From contig PTFA01000029.1 in assembly GCA_003342895.1 (NCBI GenBank), positions 310,001-374,000 on the forward strand: 64,000 nucleotides of DNA. Direction: 5' to 3'. This stretch comes from Casuarius casuarius. Its lineage: Eukaryota; Chordata; Aves; Casuariiformes; Casuariidae. The translations under genes were made by a program, and so were the position numbers. Below the pieces are notes generated by a model that worked only from the letters and a program-made list of their open reading frames with translations, did no database searches and was not told where the DNA came from. Below are positions 3,001-32,311 of this stretch, piece after piece (the stretch's first letter is position 1; the number at the start of each line of letters is the position of its first letter).

Positions 3001-5206
3001 TCAAGCTTCTATTTGAAATTTCATATAATACTAAGTAAATCCTACATTAAAAGTTGTACTTGTCTGTATTATACATTTTTTTAAACCATCGTTACATACT
3101 TTAAAAAAGCAAACCAAAGCCAAGCAATACAGCAGTAGCTCAGTAACCTTTTAGCGAAAGAACAATTGTTTCTTATTTCCCCATTGAACTAAGGAATTTT
3201 CTCCTTAACAGGCTGCTCTTGAAGACTTGAAACTTTCACTAGTGCAAGACCAATTTATGCTGATGACATTTCATCATGTATCAGTTTGTTACCTGCAGCC
3301 AGACAATTAAGTCCTGCGTAAGTATAGACAGAATTTTACCAAAGAAAAGCTCTTGTATTTGACCCTGAATAAGTTGACATAAGAAACTGGTCTGGGGATG
3401 TGCTTTAGCAGTTGGTTTATATATATAAAGATAGCAGTTATATTGTGGAACTCCTGTGCTGTTGGTCAAAATTTACTTGCTCTTCATCTTTTAATAGCAT
3501 TTCATTTTCTGCTACAGTTACAGTATTTGCACCAGATGGATAAATTCTCACCAGATATTTAACATAACCTTCTGTGCACATTTTCACATTTTTTTCTTAT
3601 GAGTTTTTGTTTTATTGCTCACTCTGGTCATTGGCTACATGTCCAAATTTGCACTAGAATAAGATCTTTTTTTTTTCCACTTGGTTAAGAAAGCCAAATA
3701 CTTTATCATGTCCTGAAATATCATATAGGATAGGTCTTTGCAGTCAATAAAATTCTCTTCAAAAATTTATATGCCCTGTAATAGAAACTGATGCAACAGA
3801 CGCTGAAGAAAATAAAGCAAGATAGTTGTTTAATCCATTACAAAGCATGAGAAAAATCTTCATGTAAACATACATGTAACCATTTATGTTCAAAGGAGTT
3901 CAGGAATAGCTAGATATCTGAGCCCCTGTAATCAACAAGAGCCTGGCACCAAACTTTCTTTTTGGAAATCCTGCCTTGATTTAAACTTCATTCACAGGAA
4001 AGCTGTTTTTAATATGTGCAGTCAAGTAGTATATCGATCTGTCCTCTTAATCTGGACATTTAAGTTTTGGTGACAGTTTCGGACCATGCCTGGTTCTTAG
4101 CAGTTTTCAGTAGCTGCAAGCTTTTCCTTGTAAACAGTTAATAATGATGTGTATTTCTGCTTTCACATCTTCTTTTCGCTAGGGACAGTGAGATCATTGC
4201 CTGTACTAAGAGACTTTGCTGCTGTGTGCTATCTGTGGCATATCTGTCAACTGCAGAGAAATGATCCTCAGGCAACTGGAAAAAACAGACATTGACACTA
4301 AGAGAGCATGTGACTGGAGTTAAGGTCAGAGATTCAAAGACTGTAGGATTAGGGCCTTAAAGATTTATGCACAAGATTACCTCTGTGCACTATATATTAC
4401 TGACTTGAAGGGAGATACCTAAAAAGTTCAACACGTATGTAATTCTTTGTGGAACAAGGCTATGATAATCCTGTAAGCACATGCTAATAGGGTTCCACCA
4501 AATTTACTCTTTTCCTTACCTCCTTCAGGAAATAAATAGGAAGCTACTTAATTTGCTAAATATATGATCCCCCCAAAATATCTCTGGTTTATACATAGAC
4601 TGAAAATGTTAAAAATGATGAGTTCCAACCTCGTGCTAGGTCAGACCTGATTTCCTCTATAGCTTATGTCACCATATCCTGATGCAGATAAAAACAGATA
4701 GATTAAATGCCTGATTTTCACGTCACTGGTGCAATAATTAGGCACAGTTTCTAAAATAAGTATTGCAAAATAAACCCAAGTCTAAATTCTCTCTGTCATG
4801 TTTAAGTTTATATTCTAAGAATTAAGTCCACTTCCTCAGAAAACAGAAAAAAATACTATAGTCTCTTCTAAACTGGGTGTTGAAAATACAGGTTATTATA
4901 GTCTGATGCTTTCTTTTTACAAGGTTGAGACACCTTTAATCCTTATATCTGCTGAATGTTGCTTTATAATTTTATTTTACCATACACTAAGTTACTTGTC
5001 TGTATTTACAACAAAAAGGTTTATTGTTTTAATTTTCAGCTCTACATTAAGAATGTTATAATTGCAAAATAGGTAAAACATTCACAGTACAGGTTGTTCA
5101 GCAGTATTGAAAACTTTGTTTTGGTCAGTTTTCAATATATTTATATATATTTAAAAACACACTTCTAAAGACCAGTAACTGTGAAACAGAGGCTAAAAGA
5201 AGACCA
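1..5206. other. non-coding flank downstream of the INF2-like gene
   Basis: AT-rich DNA with only short chance open frames. I looked on the minus strand for a DAD/WH2-like exon ([16 protein letters not shown]) and a CAAX exon matching INF2 exons 19 and 21 and saw none. No RNA gene or intact mobile element is recognisable. Confidence 0.6.
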
Positions 5207-5212
5207 TTTATT
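5207..5212 (-). terminator. candidate polyadenylation signal of the INF2-like gene
   Basis: AATAAA on the minus strand about 760 nt after the in-frame TAA at 5968. It is consistent with a terminal exon ending here; AT-rich DNA makes chance matches common. Confidence 0.3.
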
Positions 5213-5967
5213 TAGACAACAGTGACAATGAGAAACAAGCACAAGCCTTCTAAGGGGTGAGCAACCAATGCAATATTTGCATGAACTCCACTCACACATA
5301 ATGCCTTTCCAGCAGTTGTTCTCTGAAGGATCAAGAATCATAACTAAATGTTATCGACACAAATCTTCATGAAAAGCAAGTGTCAGGTATTTGCCAAAGT
5401 GGAACTCTAAAATGTACGCACGCAAATGTTAACACCAGAAGTGCTTCACACCCAGCGAGGCCCCGCATGGTAAAAGCTTTTATGTCAGTCTGCCATTCTT
5501 CAGCAAAGCGCAGACTCTCAGTTAAGCACACACAAAACTGCTTTAAGGAATCAGAACTCTAATCAGAGAAGAGCAAAAAATTGTGGTAACAGTAACACGT
5601 GACTCAACTTGCCTCCCACCGTGCCACAAGGCAGCTTAAAGTTCAGAAGCGTGGAACCTTTCTACGTCCCTAGAAGCCTGCAAACAACTACTAAGAGCAA
5701 TACCAGGGTATCATCCACCTCTAAGCAAAATGCTAGTAACTTGCTCTTTGGAAATGATATTTTTTCTAACATCTCTATCATGATCTCTTCTGAACATTCA
5801 CATGAACTTGAAAATTGATGACCTACTATCCTATCTTACAATATTTTTCACTGTCTGCTTGACAGCTACGCCAACCATTGCTAAATCACTCTCATTGTCT
5901 TACATCATCCATAGCTAAACAGATAAATTCCTCCTGATTAGCAAAAGACAGGTTAATAAATCCAGGA

Positions 5968-6090
5968 TTAGTTTTTGTTAGATGTACTGATATTTCCATA
6001 CTCTCCCTTTAGTCTCTTTGCTTCTTCACCTTTAAGTTGTTTCTTCCTTTTCTCAGACTTTGCAGCTTGCTCTTTTCTTTCTTGATTTTC
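5968..6090 (-). CDS. INF2-like exon A12: basic helix and probable C-terminus
   Basis: Encodes [20 protein letters not shown] and [14 protein letters not shown]. The INF2 exon 18 equivalent ends at 5988 (103 nt), where a weak donor (A|gtacat) sits; reading on adds STSNKN and TAA at 5970-5968. Because no DAD exon is seen downstream, I take this as the likely terminal exon, but splicing at 5988 to an exon I did not recognise or outside the window remains possible. The gap to A11 (4.2 kb) is the largest intron of this gene. Confidence 0.8.
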   Translation of the reverse strand, partial: ENQERKEQAAKSEKRKKQLKGEEAKRLKGEYGNISTSNKN

Positions 6091-9000
6091 CTGCATTCAG
6101 ACAGAATGACAAATGGAAAGTTAAATAAAAACTGTTACTGGAGAAAAAGCTGGTTAAGGCACTCTCAATTTGCAATGAGTAACTATTCTAAATGTGTCTT
6201 ATACACCCTTGCAATGACATTTTTCAGTTGCAGGGGTTAGAGGGCAAAAGCCAATACAGAGCTTCCTCATCAATGCCTTTGGCCTTCTCCATGTGATGAT
6301 GTTACCAGCAAATTAGTTCATTAGCTTTACCTGTAAGGATTCAACTATGAACTGAAATGCATTCTTAATTAATCCCTGTGACCACAAAACACAGCATTAG
6401 TTCAACTTAATTAGCATTCTAGATATTTATTCCATAGCAACTTTGATTTTATATGACTTGTATTCAGGGATTTCTACCAGAAACTTCAGGAATTCATCAC
6501 TGTGTTGAACAACAATCCACAATTCCTATTCAGGCACCCATTAAATCTGCCAGCTGTATTTCTGCGCTGGTGTTCAGCAGCAGAGTCCAAGCTGCGTGTC
6601 TGTTGGTGCCAATCATACAGCTATCAGGATGGCATAAGTCCTGTTGGGACTTATGCAGTCAGATAGGACTCCAGTTTCATTAGACCTGCTGATACTGGGA
6701 TGCTGTGATTAATGGAGGAAGAGAAAGAAATTGAATGATTACTCTCAGTGAAAGAAGACCTGTACTCAACAGAGGAGTATTTCTGGATTTAGACAAGTAG
6801 CGCAGTTGTATGAAGGGGTAATTCTGAATGACTAGGCTAACAGTAGCAGAACATCAAGTTGATTTTCTTAAAAGCTTATGCAATCCTTATATCAGAGCTG
6901 CAATCGTCCACAGAACATTGCCATCACCACCTGGAAGTCCACCTGCTTTTGACTGCAACCGGTCAGCCACTGAACTGTGGGTTGTAGAAAAATCAGTTAT
7001 TGGGCCTCTTGCCATAGAGTTCTGTGATGTTGTGAGGAGGGTGCTGCTGTGTCATATAAAATTTAATAATATCCAGGAGGATGTTGATGATTTGGAAAAG
7101 AGAGGTTTCTTCATGAGACATGTCTGGTCTCCTTTGCAGATTTTAGCAGCAGCAAAGTACTAATAGATTTGGTTGATTGCCATGGATCATCTTCCACTGT
7201 TTCCATGAGATGGGCTGATGAAGTCCCAGGAAACATGCATGAATTTCTTAGAACTTTTACAGAATGCAAAAGCCTAGGATCTTTTGGTCCTCAGAAAGAC
7301 TTCAGGACAAATAAAGCAAACTTGTGAACATAGAGTTAGTCTCTCAGAATTATAGGAGTATTATGAGCTTCAGGTTGTGGGACTTCACTGGACACCTGGA
7401 GAAGGAGAGAAAAGTGGTGCATTATCCCTGCCAAAGAAAGAAAAGAATTCATCTGCCCTGAACAAAGAGTGCTTCTGAAAGGACGAGATACAGGTGGTGA
7501 AGTCTTATGAAGAGGCTAAAAGCTTTTAATCGTTGTATGCCTCCTATGTGCTTGCCTGATAAATTCCTGCTGTGTTTTAGCACAATATCTTTGAGATATT
7601 ATGGATGTTGAGAGACTTTCAAAACTGCAGGTCCTGGGAGAACGTCTCTATGTTACATTGCCCAAGAAATAAAGGAGATGAATTCAGGGATACATTGTTC
7701 TGCTACTTGAGCAGAACACACTGTAATGAAAACAAACCAAAACTCAGTAGGAGTAAATCTATGGACTGAGCAAGCTTAAATTGAATTGTTCAGAGAGAGA
7801 GAGAGAGAGAGAGAGAAAATAGTAGTTAGTGATTTGACATAAGCACTATGCTATCAGAGTTTCTTCAACACAAGAAAGCCCACTAAGGCAGAGTGGTAGC
7901 AAGGCAGGGGAATGAATGTCCACAATCCCTTCTCCATCTCTAGGGTTACTAAAGGTAGCTGTAAGAATTAGACTAAATGAAATAAGGGTGTCACTTTGGA
8001 GTTGCACTTTCCATTCTGTGGGACACTAGATACTTGCTTGGTGTTTGAATTAAAAGATGCTCTGTGACAACCTTTTACCCCCACACTGTCTAAAGAATGC
8101 CCCATTCCTACTGAGGAGCTGGTGCTCCAGCTCAGTTATCCAAGGGAGCGCACCAAGCAACTACCCCTTCACGGAGCTGGCTCTATGACTTTTGTGAAGA
8201 ACTGAGTACTTCCTAGAGCAGATTTTGTTTAGCAATTTTTTCTCCTTCTTCTGAGATCAGACTGCCTCTTTGTAGGGAGCTCCCCTCTTTGAATCGCTGC
8301 AACTGCTAAGGGAAAATTGAATGTTCCCCCCATGCTCTATAATTACACAGTGTTTCTTTTCCATACAGTTTTAGAACTCAGTGCATCTCCTGTACTGTAT
8401 CTTTGAGCTGGGAAGCTATTTTCTCCCCACCTCCTTCCTCCTGCCATCTGCTCCTTCAATTCTTTTGAAAAGTGGAAAAACATATAGCCCTGGGTAAAGA
8501 CCAGCTCCTTTTCACTGTGTCAGTTGTGGGGGTCACTTGGGTGTTTGAAGGACATTTTTCCTCAAGGTGCACATAAGCAGTTTCGTTTGTGTAAGTCAGT
8601 CTTCGTTACCTGAAGGATAAGAAACCAGAAAGGATCCTCAGGGAATGGAGTTAAAAAAAGGAAATCAAAATTTTTTTGGATAAACCTGGAAACATGAAGC
8701 ACCACAATTTATCAAAATAATTTCCTTGCTTACTTGATGTGAGAGTGGAAAGCCAACAGTAACTATTTTGGTAGTGCCAACAGACCTGCTTCACACAGAA
8801 CACTCATCTTAAAATAAAAGCAGCATCTTAGCCAAATGACATAGCCTCAAAAGCCAAATGACACTAGGAAGAGATGATGCGTATGTCTGATTCTAGCATA
8901 AAATCTAAACAACAGAGTAATAAAAATGTTTTAGAAATGGAAACCTTAAAGTTTTTGGCATGTTGCTGTTTTGAGCGCATACAATATCTTTACTACAGTG

Positions 9001-12000
9001 AGAGAGAGAAAGTAGAGAAAGATGGGAAAGGAATATAAAGGCCTGTAATGGAGTTAACAGATATGCAGACAAAGTGGTTAACAGCTGTGGTATTTTTGAA
9101 GTGAGGTACTGATGAGAAATTGAACCAAAAATAGGATGAAAAGGAGTTTACGTATTGGGTAGAGGAAAAGCAGCTTCTTTCTGGTTCCTCCAACTTTGCT
9201 GTGAACAAGCAGCATCTGAAAAAGTAGTTCAGATCTCCTTCTGCAGCTGTATTGGGACACACTACGTAACCTTTATTGGGACTTCTTCTTTCAAAGAACT
9301 TTGGTTGCTAGAGTTACTCTTCAAATCAATTGTCTAGTATGGCTCTGCACAGATGTTGGGCCATGATATTCCTGACCCTCTCAATCCTTCACTTCCTGCC
9401 TGGGTTTTGAGGAACTTTAAGGTTTAAGTGTATTGCCAAAGGTTCTGTGGTTTGTCAGATTTTTTTTTTTTCTTGACTGGGGCACTATCCCATCATTCCT
9501 GTGCTTGGGTATCCATATTGCTTGCAAAATTGTAACTCACATATCTCATAGGAGGACCAGGTAGTGGGAATATTACAGGATATCTTATTCATCTTTTGTC
9601 TCTCTAGCTTCTGTGGAAGCATCTGAAAAGTACATTACTTCAGGCATGAAGTATGCAGTAGGGGATATTAACTGGAGGATTACTGGAGGTTTAGTAATTA
9701 GGAGGAGCTAGTCTACACAACCTATATGAGTAAGTTGCTCTTTTCTTGATCCTAATTGAAAGGAGTGTTACCTCATAAGACCTTAAAGGGACAAATATCA
9801 TCTCTTGGGAAGCAGTTTTGTGGGGGACACAAAACATGCTGATTTGAACTAGCTAGTGCAACGAAATACCCACATGTAAACATATCTCCAGATCGGGCTT
9901 TGCCTATTGCAAGACCTTCACTCCTTCTGTAAAGCCTGTTAGGTTGCTCATTCTTTCACACACCACTAGCTTCTATTCTATTGAGGCTTGATTAGTAATT
10001 TTACAGTGGGACCAACATTTTGGAAAATTCTTAATTCTCTGTAGCAAAAAAAAAAAAAAAAAAAAGTACATTTTGAATTTGCCCACATGCTCATGCTCAT
10101 TTCTTGCTGTTGACTGCAAGCAAATAAGCAACTACTTCCATATACTCTTGGAACCAGGTTTTAGGTAGCCCAGCTTGAAATGAAAGAAAAAAAAGACATT
10201 CTTGCTTGTTTAGAAAAAGGCAATATCATTGTCTTTCTAAAAAGTCACAAATGCAAACCACCTGTAAGGCCTTGAGGAAGAGCTCCCTGAAGGTTTTCAT
10301 TGTGGTAAATAGATCTTCCAAGGACAGTTTTTTTCGGTCTTCACACAGATAATCAGCAAGTTCTTCTTTCTTCTTTTCGATGTTGGCAAACTCCTTCTGC
10401 AGGTCCTTTGAAGCGCTAATACTGCCCTGAGACACAGTTTACAACACAATTTATGCACATTTAGTAGTAACATATTCTGAGCTGCCCAGAAGACTCAAGC
10501 TAGTTAATGCAGAGCAATCCTTTTTTAAAAAAATGACAGTTAAAATTGGTTCAAGATGTGCAATACTTTCTTCCTAACTGAACTGTTTGCATTTCCCACC
10601 CCTTTCGTTTGGCCCCAAAGCAACACATTTTATGTTGCCACTTTCACCATACATCCACGTGAAAATTTTGCTCAGCCTGGGATGACTGATCAAGAGATTC
10701 ATGGCACCAGGATTAGCTCTGTTTATCTTTAGTTATATGACCCTGTTTTGAGAACACGAAAAGCTAGACTTCAAAGGGTATTTGGAAATACATGCAGAAA
10801 AATCAGACTGTAAATCTGTTCCCTTTTTTTTTTTTCTCTCCAAAGAGCAGCTAGTCAAAACATGTTACTGTACTGCACTATACCCATTTATAGTTGCATC
10901 CTACATTTCCTTTTTAAGGTCTTCCTTTCTTTTGCCCACACAGAGAGCTGACTGATTCTCATCGGTTTCCTTTTCACAATACCACATTACAGGCGTGGAA
11001 AAAAAACTGGGACACTTCTTCCGCAGAGGTGCGGAGGGAGCGTGGTTACGACCCGCTTCCTCCAGAGCTCTGTTTTCATTTGCAACCTGCAATCTCAGAG
11101 CCTTTGAGGAGAAGAGATTTAAAGCGGCTGGGAAAAAGAATGGGAATTGTGTTACACCCACTTTACCTACTTGAACAGATTTTCCATACTGCATTTTTAA
11201 ATCATCTGTTGACAAGAGTAAACGCTTCTCTATTTCCAACAGTTTCTTCACATTGGCACCTGCTTCAGCCTGCATAACTTCAAAGTGGATTCTGAAAGGT
11301 CCACAAAAGGGAAAGTAAATTAAAGCAGCAAGTCTTTTGTTTAAGTTAAATGATTATAAACAATATTATCTCTGCAAATGAATATAGGACTAGTTGTCCA
11401 ATTCAGACATTGCCTTTGCAAGTAATTCTCCTCCACATTAACCCTTTTTTAAGCTGCTCAAACTCCTTCTGAGGAGGATACCCCCATTGCTTTGCTTTTT
11501 TTTTTTTGCGCACCAAGCCCCCACTACCTCCATGGGTAGACTGTGAAAGAATCTCACTTTTTTAGTTTTTATAAACCTTCTCCAAGATTTCCAGTATATT
11601 GTTATTCATAGGCAATTAACATTCATCTCTCTTGTGCCAATACTGTGTTTACTTAAATAGTTCTTTTCCTTCCTTGCTGCTTTTCTCCCCGATCTATTTA
11701 TAGTCAGAAATTGTATCTCTTCTCGGACTTCATTTAGTCCGAGATGGACATGGAGGCCCAAACATGTATGCTGCATAACCAACACATTTTACTGTTCTGA
11801 CAACCTCTTTGCAGAGACACAAATCCAGACAAAAAGCACTGGATCAGCAATACATGACTTGGTGTTTTATGGTGCATCCAGATGTGAGCAGCATTAAAAG
11901 GGTCCCTTGCAGGCTTTGCATTGTAAACAGCTCTCCCAAGGCTGATTAGCAAAACAATTTTGTAAGTTTGATGGTTTGACTAAACTAGAGGGCAATTACT

Positions 12001-15000
12001 TTATAAAAAAGAGCACATTTGTATTAACAACCAGGAAGATTTAGATTCAGACAAAAGTATTTCTATTATTACACAAACCCAGAGAGAAATACAGATTTCA
12101 ACACACCATCGATCTTAAATTCTGTACAGATAACTCGTGAAAGCCGTAATGCTTTCTGTTCTGTTACTGAATCAGCATACTTTTTGCATTTAATTAATTT
12201 TAAGCAGCTGTTTAAAAATATCAGTACATCTCCAGATTTGCAGTTTACCCAGCTTCTATTTACAAGGAAAATTAAAACATTGTGAGGTTCCAAAGAATTC
12301 ATAAAAGATGAAAAAATGCTAATCCTGAGCTGTAAGTTTGGGTTCCTGATTAGTGTAATTTAGCATATCCTCATGTAATTTTTCTGAGCTAACTAGGATG
12401 AGTTGGTGTTAAATTCATGAGGCTTTCAGGCACATGGAAGGAAGTCTGCAGGAACAGCCTTTTTCTTTCCGCCCACATATATACTGTACTGATACTTGAC
12501 TCAGGGCCTCGTGAGGTCCCTTGATTGCTAGTAAACTGTCCCAGTTGTTCCCTCCTCAAACAGCTCTGCACATGGACCTCCTGATGAGCTTGCTCCCAGA
12601 TATGACTGAGAAATTTAAGGGAAGATACTGTTTCTATTGCAACCTGTGGGAGAAGAATCTGGTCTTTGAAAATGAAGGAGTTAACTCCTTGTAAAGAGGA
12701 GAAAATCCCACTGAGCTACATATGAGAGGCTTTAACCAAACTGCTTTGTAAATCTCAGAACCATGTGGGAGGGGAACCTCTCCCACACAGCAGAGAAGTC
12801 CTGTGACCTTATTATGCCACCATAAAATGACTCAGCTCCTGCTTGGTTCTAAGGAGATTGGCAATTGATACATGACAAAAACAAACAATAATGTCCTACC
12901 CTGCTGCCTTGGAAACAAAGTCAAGATCACTGGGAAGCTGCAGCAAATCTGTGTGGTTTCTTTCAATCTCCTAAAATTGAAGTGAAAAAGCAGTTACTTT
13001 GTGCAATCAGTGAAAAAGTATGGAAGTTTCTCAGAACAGTATCAGGACGGACATATTAACACTTCAGTTTTGCTTCTTATAAACACTGGGGTAAGTTTAG
13101 CCTTTAGCAGGGAGCAAACATGTTAAGCAAACCTGAGAAAGGAAACCTAGTATTAACTATTTAAACATTTTACTTCATATGCGTTTGATCCTTTCTGCCC
13201 AGGAAACAGTGGCAAAGTTCTTACTGTATTTGTAGGCATGGAGGCTCGCTCTTCAGATATCTATGGTGGCATGCTACTGGAGTTAAAGGACCTTCGTTTC
13301 AGGTGAACGTATGTATGAGACCAATGCACACAAGACTAACTTAACAGCTGTGCTATACCTCCAAAATATGGTGAAGCAGAGTAACATGGCTTTGGTTTGC
13401 CTTTGTCTCTGTTAGTCTGAGCAAGGCACTAATTTTAAAACCGCCAGCATCTCCAGTGTGATGCCCCTGGAAGATACAGAAAAAAAGTTCTTTGCTTCAG
13501 GTTCCAAGTCCTGCATTTGTATTTTCTGCTATCTTCAGAAATATACCAATTAAAAACTTACTTACATAGTTCAGAAAGTTTCCAACTTTAAGAATCAACT
13601 GACAGAAAATTGGCAGCCGGTGACTAGTAAGAAGGGCTGAAGAATAAAAAGGGACATTTTCAATAAATTAAATTAAGGGTTCTGAAATAGGATGTTCCCT
13701 GGGTCTGACAGCAGTGTTAAAACAATTCTCATCCAAGATTATGTAAAGCCAGTATTACTATGAACTTGGAAATATACCAGCACAAAAATGGTTCATGCAG
13801 AGCATGAACAGAAATAAGTCAGATGAATGAAAGTGCAATGAATAAGTTTCTGTTGGGGTCTCTTCCGTAAGCTATACAGAAGACTAGTTTTCCCATGAAG
13901 TTTAGAGTATACACGTCATCACTGCAACCACTTGTGAGGGAGAACTGCACATGAGAAAGTATTTAAACTTGAGAAGGTCTTGAGAAGGCTTTTGCAGAGC
14001 TAGAAGAGAATTCGCACCGACATGCTGGCCCACGCTGCTGAGGGCTGAATGAGGCTGCAGAAAGCTGTTGGTTGGGACACAGAGCCAAGAGTAACTATAG
14101 CATTGACATCAAATAACCAGGTATAGCCAGATTTTATATACAAACATACACAAAAGTGTTGCAGTTGAACTGATCAATAGGAGGTCAATGACTGCTTAAA
14201 ATTATTGATCTGAAGCTATAACTCAAGAGCTAGTTTACGAAGGAATTGAGTTAAAACTAAAACTGTAGCTAATTTTGTGTGGATGGAGTTTATGAAACTC
14301 TGATGCATGTTATCAGGGATTGTCTGTTTTGTAAGGCAAAACTGATTCTGTTATGTCACTCTGGCTGGCTCCATCACAGAGTTAGCCTGCGCTACAGCCA
14401 ACATGGACTGGAGGAAGAACTGGAACGGATTCATTGTTATGGACAAAAATGTCTGCTGGGCACAAGAATTCACCTTATATTCAAAGAAAATCTGTGACTA
14501 GCGTATAGAAGTTTTCCCTCTTCTGTATGGGGGACTGCTGGGAGGAGTGAGCCAACATGTCTGTTTTATTTAGCTTGATAAAAGCTCTACTTCAGAGCAG
14601 AATAGCACAAATTGCAACTCTGCAGAATGAACTCCAGAAACAGAATCTGTAGCCAGGATTTTGATGTTCACTATATTCAGCAAATAAAAGGTTAATTTTG
14701 ATTAGATTATAGAATATGATGTGATTGATTCTATTTAAATAGAAGTTTCCTGTGACTGAGCACTGGGCAGAGACACATCACTGATGTACTTACTTTCACA
14801 GGCTCTCCTGATTGCTTGTGCTTTTGGCCACAGACAATCCAGCAGAATTTTTGTTTCCTCACAAATCAACATACATTCAATCCGCAACTGGTAGCTAAAA
14901 GAAGTCAGTAAGAAAAAAGTAAACACAAGCCTGATTAATTGACTCATGTCTAACAAGAGAATTACCCATTTTAGGCAAAGAGCAGCACCACCATTGTTAT

Positions 15001-18000
15001 GCTCTTTTTAATGCTCTGACATGAGAGAGTTATCACTGAACTGGATTATAAATAAATCAAGTCCATAGACATTGCCAAAGATGTCCCAGAAGCAATTACA
15101 ATCTCCTCTTTCAGGCTGCAATCAAATCCAGCAGTGCCTTCCTTGCATAACGAGGCAATAATTTTTGACAATTCCTGGGCAACACAAAGCAGGGTTTTTG
15201 TTCTTCCTCTTAACTTCCAAGACAGAAATTCTGACTATTTTGCAGTGATGTCTTTTAATAGTATCATTATGGATCCTCATCATGGATCAATGTTGTGGAG
15301 GAGCCATGAAAACATTTTATAAAGTGTTTTTAAAGCTAGTTATAACTTTGAGAAAATTAAAAGCCACATTTTCTCCACCACATTTTACCACAAAAAAGTG
15401 TTGCTGGCTGCAGCATAGGCAAATGATCAGATTTCTTGGGGACTATTCCTATGATTTACAACATATCACCATGTTCTTTTGAAGAACACAAAGATTTCTT
15501 TCTGCGTGCCTCATCTGGCTTGGTAAAAATTTGGGAGGTGCCCAAAGCACAGGCACTGATGTAATTCACTCATGGGTTTGTGGACTCTCTTTTGCAGACT
15601 GAAATCTCTAAAACAGGGATAGAGAGAATCAGCAGCCTGGAGGCAGGATTCAGTCTGCAGCTTCATGCCATACAGATAGTAACTGCACAACAGTCAACAG
15701 TTTTCTCACTACAACTTACTAACACCTAGGTGAATTTAACAACAGCTTGCCAAAGGTATCTGAAAGCCTGTCTGGCCTTTGGAAAGGAAAGGTTTCTCAA
15801 CCATCAGTAGAGGGTTGAGAGCTCTACAAGTAGCAATCACATGACTTATCCTGAGGACTGAATGTTAGGGACATCTTTCTAGTACAGGAAACAGAAGACT
15901 TGCTTCTTATGGATAACTCCTGTGAGAAACACACACTCACAGGTAGAAGTTGAAGAAAATTTCACTTACCTAGGAACTTCCAGGAGATGGAGATAAAATT
16001 GATCTGTATTTGCTAGTTCTGATTTTTCTTCTCTGCAAGATTTCAGGCTATTTATCTAAAAAGGAATAAAACAGTAAAATCTCTGCACAAATATTTCTGG
16101 TGCCCTTGTTGCTTCTCACAGAGATGAAACCAGCTTTTCTGAACTTGCTGTGTGCACAGGCAATGGGATTGAGGCAGACAAGCTATAAATTGCCCAAATG
16201 AACTGGTTTGCAAGGGCAGTTTTGCTTCAACTGGAAGGTCATATACATTTGTACAGCCTCTTGCGTGATAAATCCCTGATCTATAGGCAGGACTTCAACA
16301 TGCTATGGTGCATCCAAGTCAGGTGACCCCTTAAGAAAGATGTGTCCAAACACCTCTAACTGAAGCCTGCGCTGAAAGGCTGTTTATTCACCCAGGTTCA
16401 CAAATGCTAACATACTGCATCCATTTAATTAAAATAACAGGAATGAAAAGCAGGACTCAGCCCCTTGGTGAATCTCACAGTGTGCTGTTGCCTAATCTTT
16501 GTGTCGTGAGGCCAGATTTTTGCCTTGCCGAAGGCTTCCCACCACTCTATCCTAGGAGGCCATTTACTAAGATGGTGCACGGGCATGTGGGATCCGGTCA
16601 CAGTACTTTGCCCTACGAGTGCAAGTATTTGAAGCTGAGCACCAGGCACACTCTAGGTCCAGCAGAATCAACATGCATAATAGATACCTCATGGTCTTCG
16701 GGCAGCAGTTTAAGTAGCTGTTTTAGTATCTCAGCATCAAACTTGGAGCCATCCCCTTTCTGAATCATGTCAGCAATCTCTTCATTGGAGCTGTAGGAAA
16801 GAGAGAGATGCCAAGGAGCAGCAGCATAAGGAGAGGTAACATGACAAACATAGGAGAGCACAGTTCCATAGCTAACACCGTAAGAATAAAAGACATTATC
16901 CATGCTACACTTGCCTCCCATTGCTTTTAGGATCTCACTCCTCAGAAGCACAGTGGAATGAAAAAGCAGAGGTTTTTTTGGAAGCCTAAAGCAACTTTTA
17001 TAATAATTTAGATAGGCTTTCTGAGTTTTATTCATCATTATACAACAAACCCAGAGGCCTCCCCTTTTAGTATGGGCATCCAGTGGCACTGAGGAGAGAT
17101 TTACTCCTGAATTTCTACACTGCTTTCAGCAAAGCCAAGGCTAAAACTGATGGCTTTCCTCCTGCTGAGAGACACTTAGAAAAATCCCAGAAAGTTTTAT
17201 CCAAAATCCTCACCTAAAACTCTGGCAGACAACATGTGTTTGGAAGGAACCCAGACTGCTCTGGTTTGGGCTCTGGAAACATCAGATCCCTGCAGCTACC
17301 AGTGCTAATAGAGGAGGCAGCTTGGTACAGAGCAATCTCATCATGCAAAAGGGGAAGTGAGGCTCAACAGCTTGATCCCGCAGTCTCTAGCTGCTCTCAG
17401 GAGGACTTAACCGCTGCCCAAGGAATCACGCAGAGAGGAAAAAATAGCAGCTAGGCTGCACAGAGCTATTCCACACCATAAAGCAGAGTTTGCAGTGGAA
17501 AAAGAGGGGGAAAAGAAAAAACCTTCAGACTGATTCTGATTGATTCTTAACACAAAAGAGTCTCTAGGTTGTTTTCTTTCTAAAGCCCTTATAACATGGG
17601 ACGTTGCACAGAGGGCAGGGAGAGAACAGAAAAACCCATCTTTGTACTGCAGTCATTCCAGGGAATGTCAGTGAAGATATTTTGCCAAGAAGTACTATGG
17701 ATTCCCTTCTTTTGCTTTTTTTCCTGTGGGGATTGTGACTTGGTGGATTTCTCTTTGTTTAATTACACAAACTATTCCCTCTTTATCTCAATCCCTCTCA
17801 ATTTGTGAGTAAAAACTATATATAATTTTGGCTCTGAACTCCTGGAGATGTCTTTTTAAAATTAACTAATTACAAAAGTAACTTGGATTTTCCAAGTAAT
17901 GCTTCCTGCATGCAATTGATATTTATGTCAATAATACTGAAGAGAAATACTTTTCTATGTGATTTTGTTGTTATTTATAAATACTGCCTCTTTAGGAATT

Positions 18001-20761
18001 AGTGTTGTTCCATTTTAGTTTAGTAACTATTTCCAACATGGTATTAATTGCCTGGGAAGAGCCTGACACTGCCACATCTTAGTAGTTAAAAAAAGTTGAC
18101 TTCCTGCTAAAGATAGATAGCAGCTGCAGAATCTCTGCTAAAATTATTTCGTGTATTTATTTGATGGGTTTGTGTTTATTCAGATGATACGCTGAATCAG
18201 AGGCTACTCTCCAAAACTTACCACTTAAATTGCTTCAGAAATATATTCAGAAGAAGACTTTTCTTTAGACCTATGAATGTGATCTATCAAAAGAAAAAAA
18301 GATAAGAAAAGAAAGCAGTCAGCTAGAAGTACATCTGCCTTGATTTTAACAAAAACTTGAGAGCTTTTGTGCATTTGTTGGCCAGATTAATACTTCTTCA
18401 GTAATAACATTATCAACACTATTCACAGCTCAAGCTTGGAGCAGTTTACAAAAGTATATGTCATTCGATCTATTTTAGGAAGAGAGAGAGAGAGAGAGAG
18501 ACAAAGGCCCAGAAAAGGGAATTGATTTGTCTAGAATATTCCAATTTATAAGAATTAGTACTGAAATTCCCACATCCTTCCTTTGTAAGTTTAAGATCTG
18601 TCCCTCAGCAGAGGGAATTTAACATGTTTAACCTACCTATTCTGTGCTTTTTTGTGGAAGTTTTAGGCACTAGGTATCAAAACATCCCAAACTTTCTACT
18701 TTATTATAAAAGATTGACAACAATAAAGAGTGAATAAGCTTTTTTTTTTTCCTCAAGAACTTTGGCAGGCTCTACAGAAAGTGAGAAATCCAGGTACCTC
18801 TTTCGGTTTCTTTGGTTTTGGCCCCGTTTTCTCCTGAGGTGCAGCTGATGGAACACAGAAAAGTATCTCCAAGCTGGCGTAGTCAGGCTCTACGAGCTCC
18901 TCGCTGCCACCTGCCACCACAGCCCACATGGAGCGGCTTTCTGGAAGAGAAGGATGCTTCAAGATGGACCACATAGATAGAGGAACACTTTCAAGCAGTG
19001 CAACTGGTAGAAAAGAAAACACTTTAGAGGATGAGTGAAATACGAGGCTCATTAGTCCTGGACGAATGTTAATTATTTAAGAGTGGCAGCTCCCACAGAC
19101 AGCATCCCAAAGGGTTGAAAGCTAATTAAACCTGGAAAACTACCACCACATGTGGTTCATGGAGCTGAAGGCAGCAGATGAACTTAATGGGCTGCTCCAA
19201 CTTCTTTTTGCTGTTGCTGATGGTGTACATATTGCACAATTGTGGTACCCACACAGGGGATGTTGCGTTTGATTAGGTAAACATCTCTCCCTACAAGAGA
19301 TAAGGACTCCCAAGCCCAGCAGCATTGCCACAGTCATTAGGAACCATCTAAATAACACATGGCACTTCAAAACATGAAGTTATCTACAGCACTAGAATTT
19401 TTAACAAAGCATCTCACCTCCTCTTCCTTCAGGAGAGACTGCCATACTGTCACTGAAGACACTGGGAGTAAATCTGAATTTGTATCTCAGCATAAGAAAG
19501 CAGACAGTGTCTCACACTGTGTTTTGCACACTTGTTTGTGTATTTTATCGGACCAACAAGTTCTTACAATGCTCACTTCAGTATTTTTTTTAAAGAACCC
19601 CTCCAATGTCCTGCTCTGCCACTTTCTTGGTGATGAGCAAAGTGGAGAACTCCTACAAGATATCTGGTGTGTGAACTGAATTTTAAAAACAGCAGCAGAA
19701 ATGGAAAGTAAGTTCACAGTTTTACGTGAGGGACCTATGCCGAAAATTGAACAGGCCTTACAAACCCCTTTGGCAGACTACATGTTAACCACAGACCTTA
19801 GTGTTATTTTGCAGCAGTGTCAAAATCACTGATGAACTGTGAGTTCACTTAGGAGGAGCCGCAGAGCATTACTGTTCAGCAGGTCTTTCCACTCAATGGA
19901 CTTCAGAGTGTTTTGTAAACCTGAAAACCTGAATTAGTGCAGATTCACAACATTTTAACAAATCAGAGAGAGAGGCTGAGTGGTTAAATAAAGGTCACTT
20001 CTGGCAGTGACAGACAAATATGGACCCTTAGTTCTGTGCTTTTTCCAAACTATTATTTCTTGCACTTAGCCAAGGACAAGACTTTTCAATTTTATTAGAG
20101 GTGACTAATTTTTTTGTAGGACTGAGAGAGAGCAACTGGACCATCTGTGCAGCCTGACTTACCCACTCAAGGTCTAACCCCCAACATTACTGTTTTCGTT
20201 TAGATGTGAAGTGAATGAACCAGCCACCCCAGTATTACAAGCACGTACGTCTCACCACATCAGAGGGGAGCTTCTGCCAGTGAAACACCTTCATCCTCAG
20301 TGTTGGTGTCTTTGCCTTCTTAGGGTAGGGCTGCCCGGCGCATCCACAGGCAAGATGGTTGCAGTCAGGAGTACTGCACAGCTGAGGTGGTGGGAGCAGC
20401 AGGGCGTTTTTGCCAGGCATGGGAAGGGGTGGTGGGAGCATCTTGGATCCAGGCGGTAGGGGTGGAGGGGCTGGCAGCAACGGCTGCAGAGCCAGCACGG
20501 CAGACTCTTTTGGGGAGGATGGGGAAACACCTTGCTGGGGAGGTAATGTGTTCCCTGGAGACTGCTGTGGCTTCTCAGAAAGGCAGGTCGTTGGAGAAAG
20601 GCTCAGATCCACCCTGGGGTTCTCTTCTTCCAAGTCCATGTCAACTTGAATGCATTTGTTCACTTTTTGAACAGCTCTCCTGGGCGCTGAATTAGGGACA
20701 GTGGGACACTTCTTGCTTGGTAGTGGGTTCTCCATAGCTTCCCTGGTGCTGTTTTCCTGCT
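5968..20761 (-). CDS. INF2-like half gene: FH1-FH2 formin without detected DID or DAD
   Basis: Twelve minus-strand exons (listed separately) correspond in order, phase and nearly always length to INF2 exons 7-18. From the ATG at 20735-20733 (gctATGG, strong Kozak context) to TAA at 5970-5968 they give 1641 nt, 546 residues plus stop. FH1 is short (about residues 85-118); FH2 runs about 142-505 and keeps [28 protein letters not shown] and TETK, so actin binding is plausible. By eye exon A8 matches INF2 exon 14 at 29 of 36 residues and A11 matches exon 17 at 35 of 55. No DID homology is visible upstream and no DAD or CAAX exon downstream. All frames are open and all splice sites present, arguing against a pseudogene. 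Alternatives: extra 5' exons not recognised, an in-frame ATG at 20864 in an extended first exon, or use as an alternative cassette of INF2. Confidence 0.88.
7792..7816. repeat. (GA)n microsatellite
   Basis: About twelve uninterrupted GA units in the large A11-A12 intron of the INF2-like gene. Confidence 0.95.
10046..10065. repeat. poly(A) tract
   Basis: Twenty As in an intron of the INF2-like gene; no attached retroposed sequence recognised. Confidence 0.9.
10262..10426 (-). CDS. INF2-like exon A11: end of FH2
   Basis: 165 nt as in INF2 exon 17. Encodes [40 protein letters not shown] and [15 protein letters not shown]; 35 of 55 residues equal INF2. Acceptor tctcag, donor CAG|gtggtt. Confidence 0.93.
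11171..11291 (-). CDS. INF2-like exon A10: FH2
   Basis: 121 nt as in INF2 exon 16. Encodes [20 protein letters not shown] and [20 protein letters not shown]. This is among the most diverged FH2 exons from INF2, but frame, phase and length are kept. Acceptor tttcag, donor CAA|gtaggt. Confidence 0.9.
12900..12970 (-). CDS. INF2-like exon A9: FH2
   Basis: 71 nt as in INF2 exon 15. Encodes [20 protein letters not shown] and KAA, ending in GG of a Gly codon. Acceptor ttttag, donor AGG|gtagga. Confidence 0.9.
13359..13466 (-). CDS. INF2-like exon A8: FH2
   Basis: 108 nt as in INF2 exon 14. Encodes [20 protein letters not shown] and [16 protein letters not shown]; 29 of 36 residues equal INF2. The usual GDADGF is GDAGGF here and LLKL is LLRL, but the Lys of TETK is kept. 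Acceptor ttccag, donor GAG|gtatag. Confidence 0.92.
13566..13636 (-). CDS. INF2-like exon A7: FH2 signature
   Basis: 71 nt as in INF2 exon 13. Encodes (T)[18 protein letters not shown] and NFLNY, the most conserved FH2 block. Acceptor cttcag, donor TAT|gtaagt-like (gtaag). Confidence 0.92.
14794..14894 (-). CDS. INF2-like exon A6: FH2
   Basis: 101 nt as in INF2 exon 12. Encodes (S)[19 protein letters not shown] and [14 protein letters not shown]. The first thirteen residues after the splice are unchanged from INF2. Acceptor ttttag, donor GAAA|gtaagt. Confidence 0.92.
15970..16055 (-). CDS. INF2-like exon A5: FH2
   Basis: 86 nt as in INF2 exon 11. Encodes [20 protein letters not shown] and YLHLLEVP. 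Acceptor ttttag, donor CTAG|gtaagt. Confidence 0.9.
16688..16790 (-). CDS. INF2-like exon A4: FH2
   Basis: 103 nt as in INF2 exon 10. Encodes (C)[19 protein letters not shown] and [15 protein letters not shown]. Acceptor cctacag, donor GAG|gtatct. Confidence 0.92.
18222..18283 (-). CDS. INF2-like exon A3: FH2 Ile helix
   Basis: 62 nt, identical in length to INF2 exon 9. Encodes [20 protein letters not shown]; the Ile of NIFLKQF, important for actin nucleation in the family, is kept. Acceptor tgatag, donor AGTG|gtaagt. Confidence 0.9.
18425..18600 (+). mobile_element. probable decayed MIR-like element with (GA)n
   Basis: Sequence gagcagtttacaaaagtata followed by a (GA)10 tract at 18481-18501 and acaaaggcccagaaaaggga plus ttgatttgtctagaa resembles the middle of a MIR/CORE-SINE in which the gagaga of the core expanded. 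Weak, by eye. Confidence 0.35.
18798..18940 (-). CDS. INF2-like exon A2: FH2 lasso
   Basis: 143 nt, one codon shorter than INF2 exon 8 (146). Encodes [20 protein letters not shown] and [17 protein letters not shown], then PKPKKPKE. Acceptor cttccag, donor GAG|gtacct. Confidence 0.9.
20249..20761 (-). CDS. INF2-like exon A1: linker, short FH1 and FH2 start
   Basis: 513 nt. Begins after acceptor cttgtag with [17 protein letters not shown], homologous to INF2 [17 protein letters not shown] and in the same phase (two bases, then QEN). Pro-rich core [20 protein letters not shown] is far shorter than in INF2. A cysteine cluster [13 protein letters not shown] follows, then [20 protein letters not shown], the FH2 entry. 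The ATG at 20735-20733 is the first Met inside the exon; an unspliced extension would open at an ATG at 20864. Donor AGAC|gtacgt corresponds exactly to the INF2 exon 7 donor. Confidence 0.9.
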
Positions 20762-26607: not shown

Positions 26608-29284
26608 CAACAAGAGCCAGGGCACAACAGGAGGAGGAAGCACCTCCACCACTGACACAGTGTGAGTGAAGATTACAGCAATAGCTTTTTTGAATAGGGT
26701 GGAGGTTTCTTTTGGTTTGTCTTTCTTTTCACTTAAGGAAAAAGATTTTTAACTGTGCAGTAAAACGGTGTTAATAAGCAATTCTGGTTGGAATCCAGAA
26801 CTAGAACATAGCTTAATTGTGAAGTATTATTCTATTAAGAGAAACCATAAAAACGATTTGGGCCCTCACCATCCCCACAAAAGAAAGGAAAGGTGTCAAT
26901 TACTTTGACTTCTTTTATTCTAAATTTTGAAATATTTTCATTATTGAAATTAAAAAAAACAAAGCGAAACCAAAACCTGAAAATCCATCCCCTTAAACAT
27001 ACCCAAATTCTGGTGAAGTGTTTGGAAAAGACTTCTGCTCATTTCTTCCGTAGCTTGGTTTTATCATATAGCTGATGTTTAATTAGGAATATGCAGTTAT
27101 TTGACAGCTAGAGACTTGTGGTGTTAACAGGCTGGTTTACATAATGGACTCCATGTGCATTTGCTGTAATATACTACAATAATTTTTTTTGAGGTCCAAA
27201 CTCACTGTTGTCTTAAATGAGCACAGACCTGTTGAAGGAGCTGCAAGTGCCATTGTTTTTCCAGCAATTAGTTTGAGCTTACAACTACCACTGAAAAATC
27301 TTTAGGATCATGAGCTTTATTTTAAGGTTACAAATGGAGCAAATCCTGGTTGGACATCTTCCTTTGACCTGCTCGGATTCTGCCCTCCTGTTCCTGTTAA
27401 ACAATCTCTGTAAGGGAAGCAGAGCTGCTTTTAAGTAATAATTCTAAGTAAGTGCTGTGCTTTGACCTGCTTATCGGGATGTCATTGTATAGATAATTTA
27501 ATATAGTTTTCACAGATGAATACAGAACAAAGAACCAGCAGTGGCTCAGAATAACCCAGTTCTCAGCAAACTCTTGATGGAGGTGGAAAGACAATGCCAA
27601 ATGCCGTTTCCTTGAAGGCCAAGCTAGGAATGCAGGGAAATAAAATCCCTGGCCCTGTGAAAAGGGTTTTTCTCTTCAGATGCACATGGGAATAGCTGAA
27701 AGACCAGAGTGAGATGTGGACACCTGCTGCAGCATCTGAAGAAACCAGCCTGCCTGGGGCATCAGCAGGTAAGGCTTCCTATGTAACACCAGGGTAGCTT
27801 CTTTGTTCCCTAGTCCTAAATCTCAAAATGATTCTGTTCCTTTGGTAAAATAGCAGTGTGGGCTGGAGGAGGCTGGCTGCTCGCTGCTAGCCTGGGCTGC
27901 AGGCTCCTGATGGAAACATGGCGGTTGCAAAGCTGCTGGGTAAACGTGTTTGATAGTCAGATTTTTGTAGCCTGGGCTCTAATCTGAGAGCAGGAAGAAC
28001 AGAGTAATGAGCGCAAAAGGACTGATACTTGGGTGATGTGTTCTGAGACTGGAAAAAAGAGAAAAGGGTAGACCTGTAAACGTGATAGTGTTCGTACTGC
28101 AAGTCAAACCTGGGTGAGTTATGCAGTTCTGCCAGAAACGGTGGAGCTCTGCCTCCCTCCGCTAGCGGGGCATCTGATTTCAGCTGCAGTGGGGCTGTGC
28201 TGCCCCCCAGGATCTTGGGAACTGAACCTGCAACGTGTCTACTCTAAACTGATCCTTGCTTTTGCTAACCAATTCTCAAAATGTTCGTAACAATGCTGCT
28301 GTTAAAAGTTATCAGTGACGTAATTCTTGGTTTAACTCCTAACTTAGTCCAGCAAAGTTCTCAGTAAATGGATTATGAGTCCTGTAAAGCAAAGCAAAAT
28401 AAGCTTTAGCCTGAACGTTAGTCTAGACACAGTGAGTTACCATATAAAGGCATAGTTCTTAAATGTAACAATCTCTTCCACTTGATTCATGTTTCAGCAC
28501 AGTATCACAGGATACGCTTAACATATAGAATTTTAAATTGACAACTATGTACAAAACTATGATACAAAGTTATTACAAAACTTAATTGAGAAACAAAGCT
28601 CTGCATTTTTAAAACACAATACTGCACATTCCCAGTTTTAAAGCAACAATAACATGAAACTACCCGTTCTGCAGCTTGAACACAAAGACTACTTTTGAGT
28701 GCAAGCAGCTGAGCATGATATTCAAACCCAGAGATTTACTAAAGGATGAACTGAAAATGTAGCTAATAGAGCCCCCTGGAAAACCTCTTTCTGCTGCTTT
28801 AATAACAGGAATTTGGTTCCTGATTCTCCAAAGGTTTATGCATGTAGCTGTATGTGAGACTACTGCAAGACTACTGACATGCTTACACTTCATGGCACAT
28901 AAGCATAGGTGGGAACCAGACACTTTTTATATGGCCATGTGTTTAATAAAATACATATACTTTACTTCTATGACTGATCTCCCTTGCTTTAAATGATTGA
29001 GTGGGAAAATACATTTGTCTGAACTGTGTCTTGGACCTGCTCCGATATAAATCGTCAGTGGGCAATGAAGGAGCAACTTCCACCTGGGACAGTGCAACAA
29101 GTGCTTAATTCATATCCTTAATTTAGTTGAGGCACTGCTATTTTTAAAATTCCTCAGAGGGCTAAATGCTGCAGGGCTTTGTTGGGCCACGCTCAACTAT
29201 CGTTTCAAGAGGAGCCTGCCCTAAGAACAAGCTGAAAGATTTGGCTTGAAGAAGAGCTTCTTTGAGGTCTGGCCCTGGCAACCC

Positions 29285-32255: not shown

Positions 32256-32311
32256 TCAGTGTACCACACAACTTTTTTTTGTTTTATTATCTCCAGTATC
32301 AGTGTCAACCT
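32256..32311 (-). CDS. INF2: INF2 exon 21: terminal CAAX-box exon
   Basis: 56 nt including TGA at 32258-32256. Spliced to exon 20 it reads [18 protein letters not shown], clearly homologous to human EEVPPDSDDNKTKKLCVIQ. The last four residues CVVH form a CAAX box predicted to be prenylated and to direct ER membrane binding. Acceptor aaaagcag with a pyrimidine tract (tgtctctctttc) upstream. A longer open frame at 32081-32308 is in a different frame and is a shadow. Confidence 0.9.

Follow-up and report, generated by a model that had tools for sequence, protein, structure and literature searches.

The window analysed here, a stretch of 64,000 nucleotides from Casuarius casuarius, carries on its minus strand the formin gene INF2 and, downstream of it, a second gene (termed here 'the copy') that sits between INF2 and ADSS1, whose exons lie downstream of the copy on the same strand. 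The copy occupies positions 20761-5968 and is built from twelve exons, counterparts of INF2 exons 7-18 in the same order and phase and with the same splice sites. AG stands at each of the 12 acceptors and GT at each of the 11 donors, and the joined reading frame runs for 554 codons plus a stop (in exon 18, the terminal exon) with no internal stops. A first-pass annotation of this DNA had described a tandem, partial copy of INF2 in the orientation of its parent, with twelve open exons matching INF2 exons 7-18; strand, splice sites, phases and frame all bear this out. The ten exons that it had counted as identical in length to those of INF2 must be reduced, by present boundaries, to nine of the twelve (exons 9-17); exon 7 measures 513 nt in the copy versus 879 nt in INF2, and exon 8 measures 143 nt versus 146 nt. 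The features of both genes, all on the minus strand, are listed below; copy exons 8-17 were placed by comparison with the INF2 exons, with a residue check for exons 9 and 14.

46578..51944, minus: INF2 DID region, five exon ORFs (DID profile matches)
36772..46191, minus: INF2 exons 7-18, the parent block (compared exon by exon with the copy)
35609..35767, minus: INF2 exon 19 (WH2/DAD), used as query
32256..32315, minus: INF2 CAAX end (CAAX peptide search)
26953..27060, minus: borderline INF2 DID profile match, either a chance similarity or possibly the remnant of a DID exon
20249..20761, minus: copy exon 7, 513 nt, reduced FH1 and FH2 lasso start (splice sites AG and GT; in the phase of INF2 exon 7, 46191-45313)
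20733..20735, minus: likely start codon, context gaagctATGg (Met shared with reptile models)
20622..20666, minus: copy-specific N-terminal motif, 15 residues, acidic, conserved from lizards to birds
18798..18940, minus: copy exon 8
18222..18283, minus: copy exon 9, NIFLKQF with the key Ile
16688..16790, minus: copy exon 10
15970..16055, minus: copy exon 11
14794..14894, minus: copy exon 12
13566..13636, minus: copy exon 13
13359..13466, minus: copy exon 14, TETK with the key Lys
12900..12970, minus: copy exon 15
11171..11291, minus: copy exon 16
10262..10426, minus: copy exon 17
5968..6090, minus: copy exon 18, terminal, running past the old donor into STSNKN-stop
5207..5212, minus: first AATAAA 3' of the copy stop, a possible polyadenylation signal
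4063..4137, minus: probable fossil of exon 19 (WH2/DAD), decayed, chiefly the stretch that follows the LLADI box (RKSLQLLKTAKNQ...), seen with protein profiles

The likeness to INF2 extends from FH2 sequence to exon order, phases and the lengths of exons 9-17, and the parent gene is also the neighbour. The best PDB match of the copy is human INF2 (E 1.2e-159, far beyond chance), followed among non-INF2 relatives by mDia1 (E 3.3e-48). Its FH2 domain is complete (Pfam PF02181, positions 2-371 of 372, E 2.3e-72) and is 69% identical to that of INF2 in the same genome. The two residues that we take to be the key ones of FH2, the Ile of NIFLKQF and the Lys of TETK, are both present in the window copy, as had been claimed; across 16 copies the Ile is kept in every one and the Lys in 13 (Arg in three lizards). 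Of 126 FH2 columns that are invariant in 23 INF2 rows, the window copy keeps 114; across all 16 copies 79 are kept and 47 are changed in at least one. Columns corresponding approximately to human 568, 640 and 772 (a numbering anchored on what is presumed to be Ile643) are changed in every copy row that covers them. The copy FH2 is faster evolving than that of INF2, with a mean pairwise identity of 0.74 among 16 copies versus 0.87 among 12 sauropsid INF2 proteins.

Reptile models of the copy begin at, or contain, a Met at the position where INF2 reads VIERLL, and translation from this new Met inside exon 7 would yield a protein of about 546 residues in Casuarius. The MAEQQG starts of neognath models prompted a search for an upstream exon ending in ATGGCNG/GT (slash at the junction), and none was found; as the last part of the former intron 6 is in frame with these starts, an extended exon 7 may account for them. 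Proline runs of three or more in FH1 number 10 in INF2 and three in the copy (PPP runs), and the Pfam FH1 domain, found in INF2, is absent from the Pfam result of the copy. The lasso begins with KKLNW in INF2 and, among seven bird copies covering it, with KVFHW (five) or KVLHW (two); the two lasso tryptophans, whose role is assumed here, are invariant wherever a row among the 16 copies covers them.

Searches for the remaining INF2 modules covered 124 kb (the window, 40 kb past its low end and 20 kb past its high end). Across this interval the DID profile recovered the five exon ORFs of INF2 itself, all further matches being at E 1.4 or worse, and thus no intact DID belonging to the copy. One of two matches at E 1.4 (27060-26953) lies between INF2 and the copy, and 7 of 200 shuffles of that 11.5 kb interval scored as well, a borderline result. 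The earlier statement that exons 1-6 (DID) lack counterparts therefore holds for an intact DID in the 124 kb, with this one borderline scrap set against it. The corresponding statement for the CAAX end stands: the INF2 CAAX peptide matched itself, with everything else in the 124 kb at E 2.1 or worse, and the frame of the copy stops in exon 18, ahead of any tail or CAAX. The tail profile detected the two INF2 ORFs and the exon 19 fossil, with the next match at E 2; since it overlooked INF2's own CAAX exon, it is no test for CAAX.

At the old exon 18 donor, INF2 reads TCA/gtaagt and the copy TCA/gtacat (slash at the junction), and the copy passes through to STSNKN-stop. Bird copies share this exon 18 extended into its former intron, with its stop in common; of the 38 rows of bird copies that extend into exon 18, with the isoforms of a species counted separately, 35 have an STSNKN-type tail. 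Turtle and Alligator copy proteins, in contrast to the bird protein, carry exon 19, as a degenerate WH2/DAD in which the LLxDI box is kept. A profile of exon 19 (19 rows selected, 15 used after removal of four short ones) matched positions 4137-4063 at E 2.8e-5 when run against positions 1-5967, a score equalled by none of 300 Markov shuffles. The same segment was seen by the turtle copy peptide (E 0.011) and by the tail profile (E 0.04, in the 124 kb searched), and by INF2's own exon 19 only at E 7.0; DNA alignment of INF2 exon 19 against positions 1-5967 gave nothing, 217 of 300 shuffled exons doing as well. The segment is probably a remnant of exon 19, visible at the level of protein profiles only. 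An intact WH2/DAD exon is indeed absent from the window copy, as had been noted, but a probable decayed trace is not. Because turtle and Alligator orthologues have exon 19 and the window keeps this probable fossil, the DAD was very likely lost after the duplication; WH2/DAD has apparently been lost in lacertoid lizards too. The duplicated block was thus larger than the exons 7-18 first proposed: it spanned at least INF2 exons 7-19 and perhaps further sequence that has since decayed.

Orthologues of the copy were found in many birds, turtles, Alligator and lacertoid lizards, among the best 120 of 269 and the best 120 of 395 proteins. Their database names are mostly pipeline-given: 'inverted formin-2-like' in birds, turtles, Rhineura and Lacerta, 'inverted formin-2' in Alligator, and none in Podarcis. 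Literature searches for the copy gene or for the 'inverted formin-2-like' models found no paper describing them. The copy is not private to the Casuarius genome; annotation pipelines record it in many sauropsids. All 26 proteins found with the copy-specific N-terminus come from the ncbi, uniref or nr sources and none from 'lgn' (presumably assembled sequencing reads), which does hold INF2 relatives.

Trees were built from chosen INF2-type rows, with partial and redundant isoforms mostly removed by hand (main tree, 37 of 146 proteins; quick tree, 47 of the 120 listed; 2 window rows added to each). The main tree unites 16 rows in a copy clade apart from INF2 (support 100/99) and pairs this clade with sauropsid INF2 as its sister (90/86, 28 rows; not starred); the quick tree recovers the same copy clade with 24 rows. 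The duplication most likely occurred on the sauropsid stem. An origin before the amniotes, followed by loss of the copy in mammals, is rather improbable: an AU test leaves standing a tree that keeps the copy outside a single clade of amniote INF2 (p 0.114), but the best tree splits inside sauropsids, none of the mammal and amphibian rows included falls in the copy clade, and the pre-tetrapod version of such an origin is rejected (p 0.019).

That the copy is a gene of this identity, under constraint, is close to certain. Its dN/dS against INF2 is 0.11-0.28 (four methods, 397 codons), a rough figure because dS is near saturation; if a constrained gene had one copy in decay, a value nearer 0.5 would be expected, and the value found thus indicates that the copy itself is constrained. 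Together with orthologues across sauropsids, this agrees with the earlier suggestion that it is kept under selection. Some bird models are truncated, as might be expected of an unprocessed pseudogene left open by chance, but such a pseudogene is very hard to reconcile with twelve exons in an open frame with GT-AG sites, with orthologues from lizards through birds and with the low dN/dS. The partial models (Falco, 374 aa; Heliangelus, 380 aa) and a broken and fused one (Athene P0147) suggest that the gene may be being lost in some lineages.

The first-pass annotation had proposed that the actin-assembly half of INF2 was freed from autoinhibition and anchoring. The DID/DAD partners of autoinhibition are indeed gone and the frame ends before the CAAX; against this, the WH2/DAD on which the cellular activity and the severing of INF2 depend (PMC12871907) is gone as well, and FH1 has fallen from 10 proline runs to three. 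On balance, the probable reading is an old, genuine INF2 paralogue of sauropsids whose permanently open FH2 would bind barbed ends, nucleate weakly and leave filaments unsevered; for birds specifically, this weak barbed-end-binder mechanism is put forward more tentatively, at somewhat less than even odds. The bird protein would form a permanently open FH2 dimer that holds filament barbed ends. With WH2/DAD absent and FH1 almost absent, weak nucleation, slow elongation in the presence of profilin and no severing would be expected of it, which suits barbed-end binding or an anti-capping role better than a deregulated INF2. Other formins polymerise actin without a DAD, which counts against this mechanism, itself built for the bird copy on human INF2 constructs. 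According to one study, INF2-KO MDCK cells show no rise of F-actin with an INF2 that lacks WH2/DAD, an FH1-FH2 construct by itself is unable to sever, and removal of the basic half of WH2/DAD increases activity (PMC12871907). The partial WH2/DAD of turtles and Alligator, without a DID, may raise the activity of their copies.

These same constructs bear on the possibility that removal of DID and DAD left a constitutively active formin making cytosolic filaments. In its favour are the FH2 key residues, the restriction of intact DID sequence in the 124 kb to INF2's own and, in turtles and Alligator, the retained LLxDI box, given the activation of INF2 by loss of the basic half; the bird copy, however, lacks the whole WH2/DAD, without which INF2 is inactive in cells (PMC12871907), and has almost no FH1, and such an assembler seems unlikely. 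Comparably doubtful is a role in damping INF2, in which the copy FH2 would heterodimerise with INF2 or compete with it at barbed ends; the 69% identity and the retained lasso tryptophans would suit such pairing, but a lasso start unlike that of INF2 could equally separate the two. It is a long shot, finally, that the copy represents an additional class of formins in sauropsids, descended from INF2 but devoid of DID and CAAX, with a new start codon and a conserved acidic motif and with WH2/DAD lost in birds and apparently lacertoid lizards, whose FH2 would restrain or partner INF2 at barbed ends.

Relative to INF2, the copy lacks an intact DID with its calmodulin-binding N-terminus, lacks WH2/DAD (save the probable fossil) and stops before the tail and CAAX, and it has a reduced FH1, a new N-terminal motif and a new C-terminal end. 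FMN-type and PHCF formins are likewise described as lacking the DID-DAD pair (PMC5047451; for FMN1, PMC12159680), but they have other FH2 subtypes, whereas INF2, from which the copy derives, is a DID-DAD formin. A PHCF origin (PMC5047451) was considered and dropped, the FH2 being INF2-type. Pathogenic human INF2 variants work through the DID (PMC12871907), the exact module missing from the copy. An INF2 core that has existed naturally without DID for roughly 300 million years, with WH2/DAD kept in turtles and Alligator and lost in birds, offers a comparison for the roles of these modules. The 'inverted formin-2-like' database models are the same gene as the copy, orthologous by tree; sauropsid models under this name frequently represent a gene distinct from INF2 and should be left out of INF2 counts.

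The copy lies 6-21 kb from the window's low end, as twelve minus-strand exons matching INF2 exons 7-18, and all twelve were recovered in order by tblastn (queries, minus-strand ORFs of at least 15 aa from 33901-64000; target, 1-33900). With exact boundaries set, acceptors are AG at 12 of 12 exons, donors are GT at 11, phases are those of INF2, and the joined frame runs for 554 codons to a stop. The first-pass annotation's description of twelve open exons in order and phase is thereby borne out, but its count of ten exons identical in length falls to nine. The elements discussed below are as follows.

46578-51944, minus strand: five INF2 exon ORFs matched by the DID profile
32315-32256, minus strand: CAAX end of INF2
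27060-26953, minus strand: borderline match to the DID profile
20761-5968, minus strand: the copy, counterparts of INF2 exons 7-18
20666-20622, minus strand: 15-residue motif near the N-terminus of the copy
4137-4063, minus strand: probable decayed trace (fossil) of exon 19 of the copy

The FH2 domain of the copy spans Pfam profile positions 2-371 of 372 (E 2.3e-72), and in the PDB the copy is best matched by chains of human INF2 (E 1.2e-159), with mDia1 next at 3.3e-48. Compared with INF2 of the same genome over 397 FH2 codons, amino-acid identity is 68.5%, with 97, 58 and 175 differences at first, second and third codon positions. The corresponding dN/dS ratios of 0.11 (NG86), 0.20 (LWL85), 0.28 (YN00) and 0.19 (ML) are rough because dS is near saturation; together with the 126 FH2 columns invariant in 23 INF2 sequences, 114 of which the window copy retains (79 in all 16 copies), they uphold the earlier claim of selection. 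FH2 has drifted faster in the copies than in INF2 (mean identity 0.74 vs 0.87), and FH1 of the copy has three runs of three or more prolines, against 10 in INF2.

Among the matches listed (the best 120 of 269 and the best 120 of 395), models lacking the DID occur in many birds, turtles, Rhineura and Lacerta under the name 'inverted formin-2-like', in Alligator as 'inverted formin-2', and unnamed in Podarcis. In a tree of 39 rows and 420 columns, all 16 copy rows group in a single clade (support 100/99) whose sister is sauropsid INF2 (12 rows, 98/93); the combined group of 28 rows (90/86, not starred) leaves mammals outside, and the window copy joins Struthio and Apteryx (97/96), which makes a palaeognath the probable source. 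AU tests do not reject amniote INF2 as a single clade (p 0.114), and weakly reject an origin of the copy before tetrapods (p 0.019). Squamate copies among the best 120 of each search come from Rhineura, Podarcis and Lacerta only, and the sequences entered in the trees for snakes, iguanians and Varanus belong to INF2, which suggests loss of the copy, or missing models, in other squamates. Copy models from falcon, hummingbird and owl (P0047, P0049, P0147) are partial or broken, and the copy may therefore be decaying in some birds. In Emydura, the INF2-type P0060 and copy-type P0039 are labelled isoforms X1 and X2 and come from contigs of equal length, consistent with a tandem pair that annotation has merged.

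The sequence searched comprised 124 kb (the window, 40 kb past its low end and 20 kb past its high end). The first exon of the copy lies about 11.5 kb beyond the CAAX end of INF2, and ADSS1 exons begin on the same strand 19.3 kb past the low end, giving the order INF2, copy, ADSS1, with 25 kb between the last two. The CAAX end of INF2 here is CVVH; that of human INF2 is CVIQ. All ORFs of this sequence were scanned with DID and tail profiles derived from 15 longer INF2 proteins. Beyond INF2's own exons the DID profile gave nothing better in the 124 kb than two matches at E 1.4; one of them falls between the two genes on their coding strand, and 7 of 200 Markov shuffles of the 11.5 kb (32250-20762) equalled its score. 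The absence of a DID counterpart holds for intact exons; given this borderline scrap, the copy may once have included the DID or may always have lacked it, and if the scrap is real, the original duplication extended into the DID exons. The INF2 CAAX peptide matched nothing except itself below E 2.1, in agreement with the earlier claim for that end.

The tail profile matched INF2's two ORFs and then the fossil (E 0.04; next, E 2). Turtle copies P0041, P0044 and P0069 and Alligator copy P0040 carry a WH2/DAD-like stretch after exon 18 and end without a CAAX; the stretch is missing from one Emydura model, from bird copies and from three lizard copies (those of Rhineura and Podarcis finish in ...KHC, and that of Lacerta is truncated). 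In the window copy, TCA/gtacat stands in place of the INF2 donor TCA/gtaagt at the end of exon 18, and the frame continues to STSNKN-stop. Exon 18 is reached by 38 of the 48 bird rows classed as copy, with isoforms and clusters entered separately; 35 of the 38 have an STSNKN-type tail, and the remaining three stop within or just past exon 18. Within 1-5967, an exon-19 profile of 15 rows matched the fossil at E 2.8e-5 (0 of 300 Markov shuffles as high), and a profile restricted to exon 19 of four copies gave 1 of 300; DNA alignment did not detect it, and INF2's own exon 19 reached E 7.0 at best. The proteins of turtles and Alligator are enough on their own to show that exons 7-19, at least, were duplicated and that loss of the DAD came afterwards; the probable fossil adds support. 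A copied block of exons 7-18 without a DAD counterpart, as originally proposed, therefore describes the window frame and the bird protein, but not the turtle and Alligator copies or the probable remnant.

Within an otherwise variable region, the N-terminal motif shows strong conservation all the way from lizards to birds. At the site of INF2 Val-Ile-Glu-Arg-Leu-Leu, the sequence is AMERLP or MERLP in three turtle models, MEKLP in Alligator, MMEQPL in two of the three lizard copies and AMENPL in the window copy; translation therefore likely begins at a new start Met, although many neognath models begin further upstream.

According to PMC12871907, INF2 without its WH2/DAD, or without the hydrophobic half, gives no rise in F-actin in INF2-knockout cells; deletion of the basic half raises activity, and FH1-FH2 alone has no severing activity. 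By that standard the bird copy would be open but poorly equipped for nucleation or severing. The reading therefore tentatively favoured, at somewhat less than even confidence, is that the open FH2 would grip barbed ends and assemble filaments weakly. Turtle and Alligator copies keep the LLxDI box, have an altered basic box and lack the DID, and could therefore be more active than the bird copy.

None of 26 proteins found with the copy N-terminus came from the source 'lgn', though it contains INF2 relatives; that several species have more than one 'isoform X' model may, by way of the annotation pipeline, hint at transcript support. Among the papers listed by literature searches, titles and abstract openings gave no description of the copy, and the passages considered from an animal formin survey that includes chicken (PMC5047451) name no second INF2. 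Models from Geospiza fortis (P0050) and Athene cunicularia (P0147) fuse part of the copy to its downstream neighbour ADSS1, using different exons, and represent read-through transcripts or annotation artefacts. INF2's own FH1 in the window (45313-46191) contains near-identical tandem units of 11 residues followed by Ile or Val, likely variable in number.
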